A stretch of 52,425 bases of DNA, taken from Candidatus Hydrogenedentota bacterium (GTDB taxonomy: Bacteria > Hydrogenedentota > Hydrogenedentia > Hydrogenedentales > JAEUWI01). Position numbers and translations under genes: made by a program. Positions 44,466 to 52,425 of this stretch are shown one piece after another. The notes under the pieces were generated by a model. It saw nothing but the letters and a program-made list of their open reading frames with translations, made no database searches and was not told the DNA's origin. The stretch spans positions 1-52,425 of the forward strand of contig JAHBVV010000040.1 of assembly GCA_019637335.1 (NCBI GenBank), read 5' to 3'. Each line of letters opens with the position of its first letter. The first letter of the stretch is position 1.

Positions 44466-47400
44466 ATGTCCTATTCTATTCGGCGCGCATTCGCCACCCT
44501 TATCGTTGCTGTGCTTCTCCGCAGCCTCGCGGCAATCGCCCACGCGGACACCCCCGCCTTCCGCGCCGGCGCGGCCGCGGTCGACATCACGCCGCCCGCC
44601 TTCCCCGTGCGCGTCAACGGCATGTTCACCGAGCGCAGCGCAGACGGCGCCGCCGACCCGCTCTACGCCCGCGCCATGGCCCTGGACGACGGTTCCACGC
44701 GCCTCCTGTTCTGCATCGTCGATACCTGCATGATGGAGCAGGACCTCATCGATACGGCCAAGGCCGCCGCCGCGGATAAAACCGGCGTCCCCGTGGACCG
44801 CATGATGGTCTCGGCCACCCATACGCACAGCGCGCCCTCGGCCATGGGGTGCCTGGGGAGCCGGCAGGATCCCGACTACGCCGCCTGGCTCCCGGGCAAG
44901 ATCGCGGAGGCCCTGGTCGCCGCCGCCGGGTCGCTCCAGCCCGCGCGCATCGGCTGGGCATCCGTGGACGACTGGGCCCACACGCACAACCGCCGCTGGA
45001 TCCGGCGCGCGGACAAGACCTTCGAGGATCCCTTCGGCGTCTTGAATGTCCGCGCACACATGCACCCCGGCTACGAAAGCCCCGACGTTATCGGCCCCTC
45101 CGGCCCCGTGGACCCGGGCCTGAGCGTGATCGCCGCCAGGACCCCCGACGGAAGGCCCATCGCCTTTCTGGCCAACTACTCCCAGCACTACTACAGCTCC
45201 CCCCTGCTCTCGGCCGACTACTTCGGAAGCTTCGCGCGCGCCATCGCCCGGCATCTCGGCCAGCCCTCCAGCGAAGGCCCCTTTGTCGCCATGATGAGCC
45301 AGGGAACGAGCGGCGACCTGATGTGGATGGATTACGGCTCTCCCAAAAAGGACGGCACGCACGAACAATATGCCGAGGAAGTGGCCGCGCGCGCCCTGGA
45401 AGCGTGGGACGCCATCGAATGGCATGACCACGTCCCGCTGGGCATGGCCGAACGGGTGATCAACCTGGCGTGGCGCGCGCCCGATGCCGATCGGCTCGCG
45501 TGGGCCCGGGAACGGGTGGCCGCGCTGAACGGGGAGATCCCGAGGACCCAGCCCGACATCTACGCGCACGAAGCGATACACCTCCACGAACGGCAGCGCA
45601 CCGACCTCAAGCTCCAGGCCATCCGCATCGGCGATCTGACCATCGCCACGCTGCCGAACGAGGTCTATGCGATTACCGGCCTCAAGCTGAAGCGACAGGC
45701 CCCGCTCGGCATGCACTTCAACATCGAGCTCGCCAATGGCTCCGTGGGCTACATCCCCCCGCCGGAGCAGCACGACCTCGGCGGCTACACCACCTGGCCC
45801 GCGCGCACCGCCGGCCTGGAGATTCAGGCGGAGCCCATCATCGTCGAGACGCTCCTGGGCGCCATGGAGGAGGTAACGGGCGCGGCGCGAAAACCATTAC
45901 TGGACGGCGAAAGCCCCTACAGCGCAACCGTAACACGCCTGAATCCATCGTCCTATTGGCGGCTGAACGAAATACAAGGACGCACCGCGCACAACACGGT
46001 CTCCGGCGCGCCGGATGCGCAGCTTTCGGGCGGCGCGGCGCTCTACCTGCCCGGTCCGGGCAGCGGCACGGGCTGGGGCGTTGGCGAGCACCTGCGCCCA
46101 TCCAACTTTTCCGGCCCGGGCGAAATCAACCGCGCCGTGCACTTCGTGAGGGACGGCATGCTCGCGGCGGATCTTCCCGATTTGCGCGCCCCGTTCACCC
46201 TGGCGCTGTGGTTCTGGCTCGGCGAGAAGAGCGGCGCGAGCATCCGCGATGGCGGGCTGGCCACCCTGCCCTCCGGCGATCAGCTTCGCTACACGGTCGA
46301 CGCCAGCGGCTCGGCCGGGGTCTTCCTGGTCCGCGCGGGCGATCCGGCGGCGCGTTACGGCGGCCGCAACCGCATGCCCATCGGCGGCTGGCATCTCGCC
46401 GTGCTCGTCGGGGACGGCTCTGACCTTCACTGCTACATCGACGGCAACCAAACGGAACCCGAGGCCACCCGCGTCGACGCGGAGCCATTCACGGGCGGGA
46501 CCTGGCGCTTCGCCGAGGGCCTGGAGGGCAAACTCGACGAAATCGCCCTGTTTGACCGCGCCCTGAACGCGGAAGAGCGGCGCGCCCTCTGGGACGCCTC
46601 GGGGATCGAGGCGGATCGCGCCCAAACCCCCGCGCTCAGTTCACCACCCCTTTCCCCGCCGGAAGGCCTCGCCTCCATTCGTGTGCCCGACGGTTATACC
46701 GTGGACCTGGTGGCCTGCGAACCGAATGTCATCGACCCCGTCGCCTTCGACTGGGACACCCGCGGGCGGCTCTGGGTCGTGGAAATGTCCGATTACCCCC
46801 TCGGCCTCGACGGCGACGGCGCCCCGGGCGGGCGCGTGCGTGTGCTGGAGGACCGAGACCGCGACGGCTTCTATGAAACTTCGCAGCTCTTTGCCGATGG
46901 CCTCAATTTTCCCACAGGCATCCTCACCTGGCGGGATGGCGTCATCGTGACCGCCGCGCCGGATATCCTTTTCCTCCGCGATGCCACCGGCGACGGCATG
47001 GCCGACGAGCGGGAGGTTCTGATCACCGGCCTGAGCGAGGGCAACCAGCAACTCCGCGCCAACGGCCTGCGCTGGGGCCTGGACAACTGGGTCTACGTCG
47101 CCGCCGGGGGACACCACGGCGACTACGGAGCCGACACGGTCCTCCGATCCACCCGCGCGAACACGGAAACCCTCGTGGGCAGCCGCGATTTCCGATTCAA
47201 GCCGGACACCGGCGAACTGGAGCCCCAGAGCGGCCCGACGCAGTTCGGGCGCAACCGCGATGACTGGGGCCGCTGGTTCGGCACGCAGAACGCCCGCCCG
47301 CTCTGGCACTACGCCCTGCCGGATCATTACCTGAAGCGCAATCCGTATTTCGCCGCGCCGGACGGGCAGGTGCAGGTGCTCGGCGAGGTTGGCCCGCCCG

Positions 47401-49487
47401 TGTACCCCACCGCGCCGCTGGAAAAGCGCTATCACGACTTTAAATCGTCCGGCCACTTCACTTCGGCGTGCAGCGGGATGGTTTACCGCGACACCAGGCT
47501 TTTTCCCCGTGAGAGCCTGAACGGCTTCGCTTGCGAGCCCTTCCACAACCTGGTCCAGCGGATTGAACTGGAGCACGACGGCGTCACCTTCCGCGGCAAA
47601 CGCGCGGGGGCCGAGGGCGAACCCGACTTCTTCGCCAGCACCGACCGCTGGTGCCGTCCCGTCATGGTGCGCACCGGCCCCGATGGCGCCCTCTGGATCG
47701 CGGACATGTACCGCTACATGATCGAGCACCCGCAATGGCTTCCGGAGGAGGGCCGGGCCGAACTGCTCCCCCACTACCGCGAGGGCGACGACAAGGGACG
47801 CATCTACCGCGTGCGGCGAACCGAAGACCCGATCGTGCCCATCATGGACTTTTCCGAAGTACCAACAGACAAACTCGCCGGCCGTCTGGCCGCCTCCAAT
47901 GGCTGGTTCCGCGATAAGGCCCAGCAGCTGGTCCTCTGGCGCGGCGATACGAGCGCCGCCCCCGGCTTCGCGAAGTACGCGCGTCACTGCCACGCGCGAG
48001 GCCGTCTCCACTTCCTTTGGACGCTGGAGGGCCTGGGCGCGCTGACCGACGACCTGGTGGCCGAAGCGCTTCAGGCGGAGGAGCCGGGCCTGCGCGAGAA
48101 CGCGCTGCGCCTCGCGGAGACCCACGCCACGGAGCCGGTGGTCGCGGCGGCCCTCGCCCTGGCTTCCGACCCGGATCCCAAAGTGCGCCAGCAGCTCGCC
48201 TTCAGCATCGGCAGCTTCCCGGCAACCCCGGAAGCGGGCCACGCGCTGGCCGATCTCCTGCTCCAGCATCACGACGATCCGTTCACCACCGCCGCCGCGC
48301 TGAGCTCCGCCCTGCCCCACCAGGAAACGCTGATTGCCGCCCTGGCGGACCGGAACGATCCCGCGATGGCGGGTCTACGGCCGGCGCTGGCCGAGATCGG
48401 TCTCGGAACCGGAAACGCCCCGGCGCTCGCCGCGCTGCTGCAACCCGCGTTCCACGCCGCCCTGGAGGCCCCTACGCTCGCGAATGCCGAGGCCGCGGCG
48501 GCCATGCTTGACCTCCTCGCACGCCGTGATTTCGACCTGAAACGCATCCCGGAGGTTGACGCGCGCGCTCAGGTCCTGCTCGCCGCCGCGCGCGAAGCGA
48601 TTCAGGGTTCGGGCGCATTCCTGCCCCCGGACGCATCCGAGCCGGACCGGGAAACCGCCCGGTTCGCCGCCACGACGATCCTCGCCCGAATCCCCGCCGA
48701 CCAGGGCGCGGTTGTGGACGCGCTGGCCCCGACGGTCAATGGCCTGACGCCGCCGGAAACCCTTCAGCAGGCCCTGGCGATCCTTGCCCGCACCACCGAT
48801 GAACGCGTTCCCGTCATCCTTTTCGGCGCCTGGTCCGGCCTCGCGCCCGGCGCGCGGGAGAGCGCCGCTGGCATCCTGCTGTCGCGGCCAGAGTGGACCC
48901 GGCAGCTCATCGAAGCCCTCGGAGGCCCCGGCCTGCGCGCGACCGACCTCAGCCCCATCCGCCGGACGCAGCTTGCGAACCACCCCGACCAGGATCTGCG
49001 CGCCCTGGCCGCCGCCCGCCTGGAAAGCGCCGGAAGCCCCGCCCGCGCCGGCGTCGTCGCGGCGTACGCGCCCGCGCTCGCGCTGGAAGGCGATCCCGCG
49101 CGCGGCCTCCCGAAGTTCAACGAGCTCTGCGCGCTGTGCCACAAACACGGCGAAATCGGCCTGGAAATCGGCCCGGACGTCCGCACCTTCGCCCAGCATC
49201 CGAAGGAAAAGCTCCTCGCGAACATACTCGACCCGAACCTCGACATCCAGCCGGGTTACCACGCGTACAACTGCGAAACCGAGGAAGGCGAGTTACTCTT
49301 CGGCCTCATCGCCTCCGAAAACGCCACCAGCATCACCATGAAAGTCCCCGGCGGGCAACTCCGCACCGTGCTCCGAAGCGACATCTACGAACTCGGCGGC
49401 ACGTCCCTGTCCATGATGCCCGAAGGCCTCGAAGCCGCCCTCACCCATCAGGAAATGGCCGACCTGATCGCGTTTATTAAAAAGTAG
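44466..49487 (+). CDS. Ceramidase-like / LamG / PVC-type dehydrogenase-cytochrome fusion protein (1673 aa)
   Basis: A signal peptide (about 1-27) is followed by a neutral/alkaline ceramidase-like domain (about 30-460; GAAAVDITPPAFPVRVNGMF, VSATHTHSAPSAMG). A LamG module (about 500-715) comes next, then a beta-propeller of the PVC membrane-bound dehydrogenase type (about 730-1130; VAFDWDTRGRLWVVEMSDYP, NGLRWGLDNWVYVAAGGHHG, GPDGALWIADMYRYMIEHPQ). HEAT-like helical repeats (about 1140-1530) lead to a heme domain with CALCH at 1555-1559. The dehydrogenase-HEAT-heme part is a known Planctomycetes-type architecture; joining it to a hydrolase and LamG is unusual. It is probably exported, with the cytochrome taking electrons. 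The TAG stop is contained in the first REP hairpin. Confidence 0.88.
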   Translation: MSYSIRRAFATLIVAVLLRSLAAIAHADTPAFRAGAAAVDITPPAFPVRVNGMFTERSADGAADPLYARAMALDDGSTRLLFCIVDTCMMEQDLIDTAKAAAADKTGVPVDRMMVSATHTHSAPSAMGCLGSRQDPDYAAWLPGKIAEALVAAAGSLQPARIGWASVDDWAHTHNRRWIRRADKTFEDPFGVLNVRAHMHPGYESPDVIGPSGPVDPGLSVIAARTPDGRPIAFLANYSQHYYSSPLLSADYFGSFARAIARHLGQPSSEGPFVAMMSQGTSGDLMWMDYGSPKKDGTHEQYAEEVAARALEAWDAIEWHDHVPLGMAERVINLAWRAPDADRLAWARERVAALNGEIPRTQPDIYAHEAIHLHERQRTDLKLQAIRIGDLTIATLPNEVYAITGLKLKRQAPLGMHFNIELANGSVGYIPPPEQHDLGGYTTWPARTAGLEIQAEPIIVETLLGAMEEVTGAARKPLLDGESPYSATVTRLNPSSYWRLNEIQGRTAHNTVSGAPDAQLSGGAALYLPGPGSGTGWGVGEHLRPSNFSGPGEINRAVHFVRDGMLAADLPDLRAPFTLALWFWLGEKSGASIRDGGLATLPSGDQLRYTVDASGSAGVFLVRAGDPAARYGGRNRMPIGGWHLAVLVGDGSDLHCYIDGNQTEPEATRVDAEPFTGGTWRFAEGLEGKLDEIALFDRALNAEERRALWDASGIEADRAQTPALSSPPLSPPEGLASIRVPDGYTVDLVACEPNVIDPVAFDWDTRGRLWVVEMSDYPLGLDGDGAPGGRVRVLEDRDRDGFYETSQLFADGLNFPTGILTWRDGVIVTAAPDILFLRDATGDGMADEREVLITGLSEGNQQLRANGLRWGLDNWVYVAAGGHHGDYGADTVLRSTRANTETLVGSRDFRFKPDTGELEPQSGPTQFGRNRDDWGRWFGTQNARPLWHYALPDHYLKRNPYFAAPDGQVQVLGEVGPPVYPTAPLEKRYHDFKSSGHFTSACSGMVYRDTRLFPRESLNGFACEPFHNLVQRIELEHDGVTFRGKRAGAEGEPDFFASTDRWCRPVMVRTGPDGALWIADMYRYMIEHPQWLPEEGRAELLPHYREGDDKGRIYRVRRTEDPIVPIMDFSEVPTDKLAGRLAASNGWFRDKAQQLVLWRGDTSAAPGFAKYARHCHARGRLHFLWTLEGLGALTDDLVAEALQAEEPGLRENALRLAETHATEPVVAAALALASDPDPKVRQQLAFSIGSFPATPEAGHALADLLLQHHDDPFTTAAALSSALPHQETLIAALADRNDPAMAGLRPALAEIGLGTGNAPALAALLQPAFHAALEAPTLANAEAAAAMLDLLARRDFDLKRIPEVDARAQVLLAAAREAIQGSGAFLPPDASEPDRETARFAATTILARIPADQGAVVDALAPTVNGLTPPETLQQALAILARTTDERVPVILFGAWSGLAPGARESAAGILLSRPEWTRQLIEALGGPGLRATDLSPIRRTQLANHPDQDLRALAAARLESAGSPARAGVVAAYAPALALEGDPARGLPKFNELCALCHKHGEIGLEIGPDVRTFAQHPKEKLLANILDPNLDIQPGYHAYNCETEEGELLFGLIASENATSITMKVPGGQLRTVLRSDIYELGGTSLSMMPEGLEAALTHQEMADLIAFIKK

Positions 49488-49584
49488 GATAGCCGTCCCG
49501 GCTGTCCAAAGTAGGATAGCCGTCCCGGCTGTCCCAAAACAGGCGGAACGCCTGTCCAAAGTAGGATAGCCGTCCCGGCTGTCC
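49484..49584. repeat. GTAG-headed REP array, left of the RAYT gene
   Basis: Three near-identical 24-bp units (49484-49507, 49511-49534, 49561-49584) have a GTAG head and then GGATAGCCG-TCC-CGGCTGTCC, a 9-bp stem with one G-T pair and a 3-nt loop. A variant hairpin with AGGCGGAACGCCT lies between units 2 and 3. GTAG-headed hairpins are the classical form recognised by RAYT transposases. Confidence 0.85.
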
Positions 49585-49594
49585 AATCTCCCTA

Positions 49595-50239
49595 TCACTT
49601 CACCCCAAGCCCACAGCCTATCAAATAGCCCGAAGCAATCCCCGCTTTCCTCGGGTTCTCCTCAATATATTTTCGAAAATGCTCAAGATGAGGAGCGCTC
49701 CGAACGATGTGGTCAAATGACTCGCCCTGCCACACCGTGCCCGAACGATGCAGGAGCTTGTTCAACTCGTGCGCCGTAAATGATTTCCAGGTATGCAGGT
49801 GTTTAGAAAGATCTTCGGCATCGTACGCACGTACAAGCACGTGGACGTGATTCGGCATGATCGTATAGGAATCGAGAATATATCGTTCGCCATCAAAGTG
49901 ATGCAGCGCAGACGCCACCAATTCGCCCGCGCGCTTGTCGGCCAGAATGCGCGAACCGTCGCCGGCATCAAGCCATTTCTCGAATCGTTGATAGAAGTCC
50001 CCATAGGAACGCATCTCCTCGATGCTCCACGGCTTCGGGTGACGCTTAAGCCACTGTTCGCGCTCCTCCTTCCAGGACCTGACCTTCGAACGCGGGACAG
50101 AGTCGGCGAGACGAAATGTAACGAAGTAGGTGACTCCGTCTTGTCTCCAATGCGGAAGATGCCGTCCGTGGATCGCAAGTTCGGCGGTGCGATCAAAGGG
50201 AATGAATACGTCGTCGGGCACGCACTCGTTGGTTTCCAT
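49595..50239 (-). CDS. REP-associated tyrosine transposase (RAYT, Y1 HUH family)
   Basis: The 214-aa protein has the HUH metal site H131-x-H133 in IMPNHVHVLV and a candidate catalytic Y191 in FRKYIEENPRKAGI, plus GTVWQGESFDHIVRS. These match the TnpA-REP group, which nicks single-stranded REP hairpins and is not itself flanked by IS ends. It appears intact, unlike the two relics near the left end, whose sequence is clearly from another subfamily. A TTGACA promoter and a GGAGG site precede ATG 50239. GTAG-headed REP hairpins flank it on both sides in inverted orientation, so it is probably the enzyme acting on that family. Confidence 0.92.
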   Translation of the reverse strand: METNECVPDDVFIPFDRTAELAIHGRHLPHWRQDGVTYFVTFRLADSVPRSKVRSWKEEREQWLKRHPKPWSIEEMRSYGDFYQRFEKWLDAGDGSRILADKRAGELVASALHHFDGERYILDSYTIMPNHVHVLVRAYDAEDLSKHLHTWKSFTAHELNKLLHRSGTVWQGESFDHIVRSAPHLEHFRKYIEENPRKAGIASGYLIGCGLGVK

Positions 50240-50287
50240 CTTGTCGCCTCCAAGTTGGAAAAATGGTGGCCATCCTCTCCTTTTGAC

Positions 50288-50316
50288 ACAATAACAGGTG
50301 CGCTCGCGACTGTCAA
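50288..50316 (-). promoter_or_regulatory. Promoter of the RAYT gene
   Basis: On the minus strand a perfect TTGACA (50316-50311) and TATTGT (50293-50288) are separated by 17 bp, about 50 bp upstream of the start codon. Confidence 0.65.
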
Positions 50317-50352
50317 TGTAGAATTGACGTGAACAGGCCTGCGGCCTGCCCT

Positions 50353-50446
50353 GGACAGCCGGGACGGCTATCCTACTTTCCGAGGCCTGCGGCCCGCCCG
50401 GAACAGCCGGGACGGCTATCCTACATTGTCCGCCATCCTGGCTGTC
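50353..50446. repeat. GTAG-headed REP array, right of the RAYT gene, inverted orientation
   Basis: Units at 50353-50376 and 50401-50424 are the reverse complement of the left-hand REPs (ending CTATCCTAC). A third, diverged unit near 50428-50446 reads GTAGGACAGCCAGGATGGCG on the minus strand. Its TAG overlaps the stop codon of the FAD oxidoreductase gene. Confidence 0.8.
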
Positions 50447-51862
50447 CTACATCTCAAATGGCAACTTCCCCGCCGCCGCGCTGCGCGCCGCCAGTTTTCC
50501 CGCCGCTTCCCCCATCGGCACGGCGTTCCCCGTCACGCGGTAGCTCGAGTGCGCCAGGAAATCCCCGCTGATGCACCGGCCCGCCATGAGCAGGTTGTCC
50601 ACATCCTTCGACATCAGCGCGCGCAGCGGAATGTCGTACGGCTTCACCTTAAGGCCATGGTTCGAATAGCCCAGATCCTTCCCCACCTCCTTCGTCAGCG
50701 CGTGCACATCCACCGAAAACTTCACCTGGCAGACCGCGTCCTCGTGCGAACGCCCCTCCCGAAGGTCGTCCGCCGTCACGGTGTAGCGCCCCGCGATCCG
50801 ACGCGCCTCGCGAATACCGATCTGCTCCGCCGTCGCCACGAGCGAAATATCCGCCCAGGGCCCGCCCGCCTTCCGCAACGCCCGCACGATCGCGTAGACC
50901 TCGCGCCGCGCGCGGATCGTCGCTTCCGTCACCGCGTCCGGGTCAAAGGCCGGAACCCCGTACTCGTGGTTCGCCATGAGCGCATAGAGGCCCTCGTGGA
51001 TGTGGAAGAGCGAGGGGCTCGCGTAGGACGGATGCTGTCCCTGCGCCTTCAGCAATTCAAGCAGCTGTTTCTTCGCGTCCGTCCCGCCGCGGTTGATGTA
51101 GGGCGCCACGGCCTCGGCCTCGATCCCCGTCACCAGCGCCATCAGGCTCATCGGCTGGCACAGGCAGCTCTCGTCGATGCCCACGTCAAACGCACACCCC
51201 GCCTGCGCGCCGAGGTCCCCGTCCCCTGTGCAATCGATGTAATTCGCGGCGGTCCACGCCTCCCGCCCCGCCTTGGACTCCGTCACCACCGCCGCAAGCC
51301 GGCGCCCGTCGCGGATAGCCCCCACCACGCGCGTGTGCAGCCGAATCGCAATCCCCGCCTCTTCGCACATCTCCTCCAGCGCCACCTTCATCATCTCCGG
51401 TTCGTACGTGAACTTCCGCGTGGGCGGCGCATTGCCCATCGATTCCAGGCGGGCCTCGATCTCGGCCATGATCCCGTCCTTGTTGCCGTAATCCAGGATG
51501 TTGCAGAGCATCCCCGCGGTCCAGACCCCGCCCAGACACCCGTTTACCTCCAGGATCCCCGTTTTCGCGCCCGAACGCGCCGAGGCCAGCGCCGCCGCGA
51601 CTCCCGCGGGACCGCCGCCGCAGACCAGCACGTCGAAAGCCGCGCGCAAGGGTACCTGACGGCCGTCCTCGCGCAACAGGTCCCCATCGTTGGAAAGCGT
51701 CCCCGACGTACGGTTGACGCGACCCTCCTTGTTTGGCCCGGCAACCAACGGCGTGTCGGATTCGCCCTGCGCCGCCACCGCGCCGCCCGCCGCCAGCGCG
51801 GGTATCGCCGCCATGCCCCTGAGCCAGCTTCGCCGGTTGATCCGGGTGTCCTTCTTCATCAT
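50447..51862 (-). CDS. Tat-exported FAD-dependent oxidoreductase
   Basis: The 471-aa protein begins with a twin-arginine signal (INRRSWLRGMAAIPALAAGG) and has the FAD-binding motif DVLVCGGGPAGVAAALASAR. The GCLGGVWTAGMLCNILDYGN segment and the YIDCTGDGDLGAQAG motif mark the FAD_oxidored family, which is common in polysaccharide-degrading Planctomycetes-like bacteria. The C-terminus has NLLMAGRCISGDFLAHSSYR. The substrate is unknown; an exported flavoprotein could oxidise sugars or sugar-derived acids. ATG 51862 has AAGGAG upstream at a relaxed distance; the next codon is also ATG. Its stop TAG lies in a REP hairpin unit. Confidence 0.9.
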   Translation of the reverse strand: MMKKDTRINRRSWLRGMAAIPALAAGGAVAAQGESDTPLVAGPNKEGRVNRTSGTLSNDGDLLREDGRQVPLRAAFDVLVCGGGPAGVAAALASARSGAKTGILEVNGCLGGVWTAGMLCNILDYGNKDGIMAEIEARLESMGNAPPTRKFTYEPEMMKVALEEMCEEAGIAIRLHTRVVGAIRDGRRLAAVVTESKAGREAWTAANYIDCTGDGDLGAQAGCAFDVGIDESCLCQPMSLMALVTGIEAEAVAPYINRGGTDAKKQLLELLKAQGQHPSYASPSLFHIHEGLYALMANHEYGVPAFDPDAVTEATIRARREVYAIVRALRKAGGPWADISLVATAEQIGIREARRIAGRYTVTADDLREGRSHEDAVCQVKFSVDVHALTKEVGKDLGYSNHGLKVKPYDIPLRALMSKDVDNLLMAGRCISGDFLAHSSYRVTGNAVPMGEAAGKLAARSAAAGKLPFEM

Positions 51863-51964: not shown

Positions 51965-52425
51965 GACCTCAGGCCAATCGCGTTGAAACCGGATCATTTC
52001 TGATGGGCGTAATCTGGTGACGATTCGGAAGCTTGAATCAAGGAAAGTGAGCGTGTTGGAGCGCCGGCATCCCTGCCGGCAAGATCCGGAATTCGCCACA
52101 GGCGAAATACCGGCGCCCTGCGGACCTCAAGGAAATCACATGTAAACCCGATCATTTCGGATGGGCGTAAACTGGCGACGATTCGGAAGCTTGAATCAAG
52201 GAAAGTGAGCGTGTTGGAGCGCCGGCATCCCTGCCGGCAAGGTCCGGGATTCGCCACAGGCGAAATACCGGCGCCCTGCGGCCCTCAAGGAAATCACATG
52301 TAAACCGGATCATTTCGGATGGGCGTAATCTGGTGACGATTCGGAAGCTTGAATCAAGGAAAGTGAGCGTGTTGGAGCGCCGGCATCCCTGCCGGCAAGG
52401 TCCGGAATTCGCCACAGGCGATATG
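51965..52425. repeat. 158-bp tandem repeat array, cut by the window end
   Basis: The word ATCATTTC recurs at 51993, 52151 and 52309, giving an exact 158-bp period; the third unit is cut off after about 119 bp. Each unit carries GTGAGCGTGTTGGAGC, the GCCGGCATCCCTGCCGGC hairpin and TTCGCCACAGGCGAA. These also occur in the MITE-like element at 16276, whose right-hand complementary arm is missing here. Frames of about 87 codons run through the repeats on the minus strand but only mirror the period, so I do not call them genes. Confidence 0.85.

Follow-up and report, generated by a model that had tools for sequence, protein, structure and literature searches.

A RAYT gene between outward-facing GTAG-headed REPs in a Hydrogenedentota genome, with a candidate head-reading residue

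Near the right end of the window, the 52,425-nucleotide stretch of a Candidatus Hydrogenedentota contig analyzed here, a gene for a small HUH/Y1 protein lies between short hairpins that face away from it on both sides. This layout raises the question of whether the module is a transposase gene with its own REPs, an ordinary insertion sequence, or a set of hairpins with some cellular role beside an unrelated gene. We hold with high confidence that the module is a REPtron, that is, a gene for a domesticated single-strand endonuclease resembling those of IS200/IS605 (RAYT, TnpA-REP), with its own REPs facing outward on either side. The pairing of a RAYT with REPs is, as such, already known, and the module is real and well formed.

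RESULTS

A rayT gene is flanked by outward-facing REPs

The features of the module are as follows, in window coordinates.

49484..49507, + strand: REP copy 1, exact sequence match; bases 2-4 (TAG) are the left gene's stop codon
49511..49534, + strand: REP copy 2, exact sequence match
49539..49555, no strand: extra hairpin ACAGGCGGAACGCCTGT, without a GTAG head, between REP copies 2 and 3 (fold z -5.1)
49561..49584, + strand: REP copy 3, exact sequence match; its tail faces the rayT stop codon
49595..50239, - strand: rayT, encoding a 214-aa REP-associated tyrosine transposase (ORF; Pfam Y1_Tnp; NCBIfam REP_Tyr_transpos; fold match 4ER8)
50288..50316, - strand: promoter-like site upstream of rayT (TTGACA-17-TATTGT), no more than expected by chance (motif scan)
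50353..50376, - strand: REP copy 4, exact sequence match, inverted
50401..50424, - strand: REP copy 5, sequence match with one mismatch, inverted
50427..50450, - strand: REP copy 6, degenerate, with 6/8 stem pairs on visual inspection; the right gene stops at its TAG (read from the sequence)

The REP at the locus is the 24-mer GTAGGATAGCCGTCCCGGCTGTCC, for which the expectation in shuffled sequence is 0. All heads at the locus face outward, with rayT in between. The original prediction had at least three hairpins on the left and two to three inverted copies on the right; we found three exact copies on the left and one exact, one single-mismatch, and one degenerate copy on the right. It had also given each hairpin a GTAG head, a 9-bp stem, and a TCC loop. 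The head and loop were correct, but the conserved form is GTAG, an 8-bp stem, TCC, and the 8-bp stem again. The ninth pair borrows the final G of the head; it is not conserved in relatives, nor in most copies from the nearest congener. As single-stranded DNA, the REP has a stable fold (z about -5). The TTGACA promoter proposed for rayT does exist as a match (10/12), but one such match was found where 0.6 were expected.

The genes on both sides converge on the module. The left gene (44466-49487) encodes a ceramidase-like N-terminus, DUF7133, and HEAT, and the right gene (50447-51862) encodes a FAD-dependent oxidoreductase. The stop codons of both are the TAG of GTAG REP heads (49484-49487 and 50447-50450). 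This arrangement is not new, because Di Nocera and colleagues reported that GTAG REPs commonly provide TAG stop codons (PMC3733652). Elsewhere in the genome, only a few GTAG heads terminate a long ORF (46 copies sampled). The location of both neighbor stop codons within REP heads is a point for an alternative in which rayT is a relic or passenger and the hairpins do routine work for the cell, at transcript ends, in gyrase or IHF binding, or in controlling translation at stop codons. The stable fold of the hairpin points the same way, as does the finding that E. coli ribosomes can stall where a REP lies close to a stop codon (PMC12306157). Such a function is compatible with the REPtron reading, and the two are not exclusive.

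At the contig end, positions 51986-52421 of the window form a tandem array with 2.8 copies of a 158-bp unit. The unit includes a GGAGCGCCGGC-ATCCCT-GCCGGC hairpin; therefore, a second REP type is also present inside the window.

The protein is a RAYT

The predicted 214-aa HUH/Y1 protein was confirmed. Its translated ORF (49595-50239, -) contains N-H131-V-H133 (HUH), the catalytic Y191, and the GTAG-recognition segment W170-Q171 ... D176-H177-I-V-R180. W170, R180, H131, H133, and Y191 are invariant across 77 homologues, and the GTAG-recognition residues of E. coli (W94, Q95, H101, and R104) are present as W170, Q171, H177, and R180. The protein has NHVH, WQ, and YIEENP where the published motif table gives NH[IFV]H, WQ, and YIxNNP for subclass 2.4 (group 4), a possible affiliation (PMC6006769).

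The protein matches the Pfam domain PF01797 (Y1_Tnp) with an E value of 7.5e-8. A Y1_Tnp domain would also be present in a conventional IS200/IS605-family insertion sequence with hairpin ends by chance, and outward-facing hairpins on both sides and IS608 TnpA among the fold matches would suit such an element. However, the NCBIfam REP_Tyr_transpos model gave 64.7 bits, short of its curated cut-off (80), while the IS200 model scored 19.5 bits, and the protein has Y-x-x-x-N-P in place of Y-x-x-x-Q. The RAYT model matched 34/34 aligned homologues. The AlphaFold2 model (pLDDT 84) had 4ER8, E. coli TnpA-REP bound to REP, as its top PDB match (5.8e-7, compared with 1.4e-4 for IS608 TnpA), with modest TM-scores of 0.4 to 0.6. 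In the tree, the protein groups with the RAYT of the congener G002, apart from the IS200-like proteins of its own genome (G000), with long branches limiting deep placement. There is a single close copy of rayT in G000; the next best protein is 43% identical, yet the hairpin is present in 238 copies. We found no multiple near-identical full-length copies of rayT in G000 of the kind expected of IS200/IS605. A conventional insertion sequence is thus very improbable, and the prediction of a RAYT rather than an IS200/IS605 TnpA held in scores, fold, and grouping. The one close copy and the lack of any sign of an insertion sequence are consistent with a domesticated RAYT.

Two IS200-like Y1 proteins, L166 (G000:C3) and L167 (G000:C4), have a Y-x-x-x-Q-E-x-H-H pattern like that of subclass 1.2 and served as the outgroup.

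The REP family is numerous in one genome and confined to three species

G000 (7.16 Mb) contains 238 copies of the REP with up to 3 mismatches, spread over many contigs, and the reversed-pattern control gave 0. At least 100 copies are exact, including every one among the matches listed. The hairpin is therefore far from restricted to this locus, as the original proposal of a REP system had anticipated. It is a short GTAG stem-loop in many extragenic copies, as expected of a REP, with extragenic position taken from sampled contexts. A draft assembly in 55 contigs might raise the suspicion of an assembly or chance artifact. Shuffles gave 0 matches, REP copies lie on many contigs, and many independent genomes have a like layout, which makes an artifact extremely improbable. 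The intact ORF, the invariant catalytic residues, and the at least 100 identical copies lend indirect support to a system that may be active or recently active.

Among congeners, G002 has 89 copies and G003 has 5; we found none in 57 further relatives. The REP family is confined to three species, and REPs and rayT co-occur in the genus. This co-occurrence argues against rayT being a passenger beside hairpins of purely cellular function, as does an intact rayT with invariant catalytic residues. In G002, rayT occupies a different site: a synteny check turned up nothing nearby but a paralogue of the left gene with 23% identity. Two incomplete RAYT frames in G002 (G002:C119:15899-16285 and G002:C54:14646-14867; 58% and 66% identity) have REPs that resemble the window type more closely; a contig break possibly divides a single gene between them.

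In 8/96 REP copies, one stem pair is G-C instead of C-G, both arms having changed in a compensatory way; at the base of the stem, some G002 copies carry a change that is likewise compensated. In tandem arrays of 172-bp and 43-bp units, the REP has 0 variable columns and the spacers have 18/148 and 5/21. This is only a hint that the REP may be maintained, since the units are few and were picked by exact REP matches. Most REP copies in G000 have CA at both edges (-5/-4 and +23/+24), a weak lead to a possible cleavage site. A cross-complementarity model predicts that a dinucleotide beside the REP changes in step with the head (PMC8266576); we found no clear head-tracking dinucleotide beside the REPs of 36 GTAG, 27 GTGG, and 22 GGAG families.

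Neighboring REPs are mostly head-to-tail

The genome-wide hairpins had been expected to form inverted pairs, and mostly they do not. Among neighboring copies at most 400 bp apart, 53 pairs were head-to-tail, 5 were heads-out, and 0 were heads-in, in a sample drawn around exact copies that misses partners with more than 4 diverged bases. Exact copies alone gave 37 head-to-tail-type pairs versus 1 in G000. Thus, the GTAG REP of the window is not a REPIN in G000, where most copies would have to be inverted pairs. Most described GTAG families prefer heads-out dimers, with head-to-tail pairs absent or rare (PMC3733652).

A hairpin of the GCGCC-GAAA-GGCGC type often comes after REPs in G000, and the 14-mer GCGCCGAAAGGCGC has 55 exact copies. 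Mosaic arrays in G000 (e.g., L067, L068, and L072) interleave REPs with GCGCCGAAAGGCGC- and GATCGCGGACATTCCTGTCCGCGG-type hairpins in 43-bp and 172-bp units.

G000 also has other RAYTs. L032 (G000:C2:256128-256619), L034 (G000:C2:259253-259747), and L033 (G000:C28:53290-53781) are RAYT paralogues (42-43% identity) whose repeats have GGAG heads. The GGAG-headed family that flanks L032 has 189 copies. Many of these form REPIN-like inverted pairs exactly 130 bp apart, and others form direct arrays with a pitch of about 51 bp. GTAG REPs in head-to-tail order and a GGAG family with inverted pairs are both present in G000; therefore, both layouts exist in one cell.

Head type follows the RAYT tree across phyla

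Homologues of the RAYT were present in 26/60 relatives, G000 itself counted (E <= 1e-20). At E <= 1e-40, they were present in 81/289 genomes of the phylum of G068 and 48/294 of that of G070. A search of 105 RAYT flanks that ignored head type most often turned up repeated hairpins headed by GTAG, and GTGG and GGAG heads were frequent too; none of the 63 control stretches contained a repeated hairpin. A fuller caller found GTAG, GTGG, or GGAG hairpins at 62/77 RAYT loci. Across 329 RAYT loci, 217 had a repeated G-N-R-G-headed hairpin; at the other 112, the searched flanks yielded no repeat with a head. At most loci of homologues, in PVC bacteria and beyond, hairpins headed by GTAG, GTGG, or GGAG flank the gene.

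On a RAYT tree with flanking REPs, a check that the original prediction had proposed, head type was clustered, with 11, 10, and 9 changes compared with 22.7, 16.4, and 15.5 in shuffles (0/500 as low). This agreement between head type and RAYT phylogeny, which holds across phyla, is a further point against hairpins that merely serve the cell. We consider that explanation unlikely and retain the REPtron as the better account. Points against the REPtron are the RAYT score under the model's cut-off, the different position of rayT in G002, the mostly non-inverted arrangement of genome-wide copies, and the loci that yielded no headed repeat.

Position 177 covaries with the second base of the head

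A scan of alignment columns against head type picked position 177, in the motif W170-Q-x-E-x-x-D-[H/R]177-x-x-R180. To our knowledge, RAYT recognition of the REP head is known in structural detail for E. coli only. Among 204 loci with a clear head, His177 accompanied a T at the second head position in 109 and a G in none. Position 177 was Arg (58), Thr (12), Leu, or Lys where the head had G, and Arg was also found with T heads (23 loci). His184 was present in 66/72 G-head loci versus 7/132 T-head loci. There were at least 11 changes of head type on the RAYT tree, giving 5 well-supported independent contrasts. In these, His177 went the same way 3.7 times and the opposite way 0 times on average, and 15 comparison columns reached at most 1.5; with 5 contrasts, significance is out of reach of a sign test. 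L117 was considered as a His177/GGAG exception and rejected, its repeats being GTAG. The residue of E. coli that corresponds to H177, H101, is listed among those that recognize GTAG; subclasses 2.5 and 2.7 sometimes carry R in its place, a difference that the part of the source available to us does not tie to the head (PMC6006769).

From these alignments, one RAYT position may read the second base of the REP head, with His177 demanding T (GTAG/GTGG) and GGAG systems having Arg or Thr, usually with His184. We put this forward tentatively, with slightly less than even confidence. The covariation of His177 with T heads is suggestive, not proven, and offers a testable hypothesis. It points to residues 177 and 184 as a concrete candidate pair for recognition of the REP head.

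DISCUSSION

By analogy with the biochemistry of E. coli and Stenotrophomonas (PMC8266576), the RAYT would bind the folded single-stranded REP strand, a GTAG and 8-bp hairpin with a TCC loop. On the same analogy, its Y191 would become attached to a CT- or CA-type dinucleotide close by, and transfer of the strand to a new place would spread REPs between genes. His177 may help to read the T of GTAG, as its covariation suggests. The arrangement of copies suggests that after insertion, REPs multiply mostly by tandem duplication of a REP and its spacer, which would give the head-to-tail arrays.

The original prediction placed the module where such systems are little described. This is true of the phylum, in that we found no paper on REPs of Hydrogenedentota, but not of the wider group: GTAG REPs of the PVC superphylum, highly enriched in Opitutus terrae, were published in 2013 (PMC3733652). 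PVC GTAG families such as that of O. terrae resemble the window in their many short GTAG hairpins and in GTAG often giving a TAG stop. They differ in layout: most described GTAG families have heads-out dimers, whereas 53/58 neighbor pairs of the window family are head-to-tail.

E. coli TnpA-REP (RayT, group 2; PDB 4ER8) is the best fold match and shares the GTAG head and the W/Q/H/R recognition residues (W170, Q171, H177, and R180 in the window). However, its sequence match to the window RAYT is very weak (phmmer E 0.08), and E. coli REPs are longer, with a required bulge, unlike those of the window. In its motifs (NHVH, WQ, and YIxxNP) and its length of about 200 aa, the window RAYT resembles two subclasses, 2.4 (Bertels group 4) and 2.7, which also occur in many phyla (PMC6006769). 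Their REPs are described as long, whereas those of the window are short.

The REPtron Sm of Stenotrophomonas maltophilia (Bertels group 3, subclass 2.5; PMC8266576) is like the window module in having a 23-nt REP with a GTAG head, an 8-bp palindrome, and a 3-nt loop, and a single rayT among REPs. Its RAYT has DH[LF]H and YI[VI]ANP, whereas that of the window has NHVH and YIEENP; the REP sequences are unrelated, and the copies in the window's genome are mostly head-to-tail. The module brings the REPtron into a phylum that has been little studied, in a genome with two REP systems: a GTAG system with head-to-tail arrays and a GGAG system with many inverted pairs.
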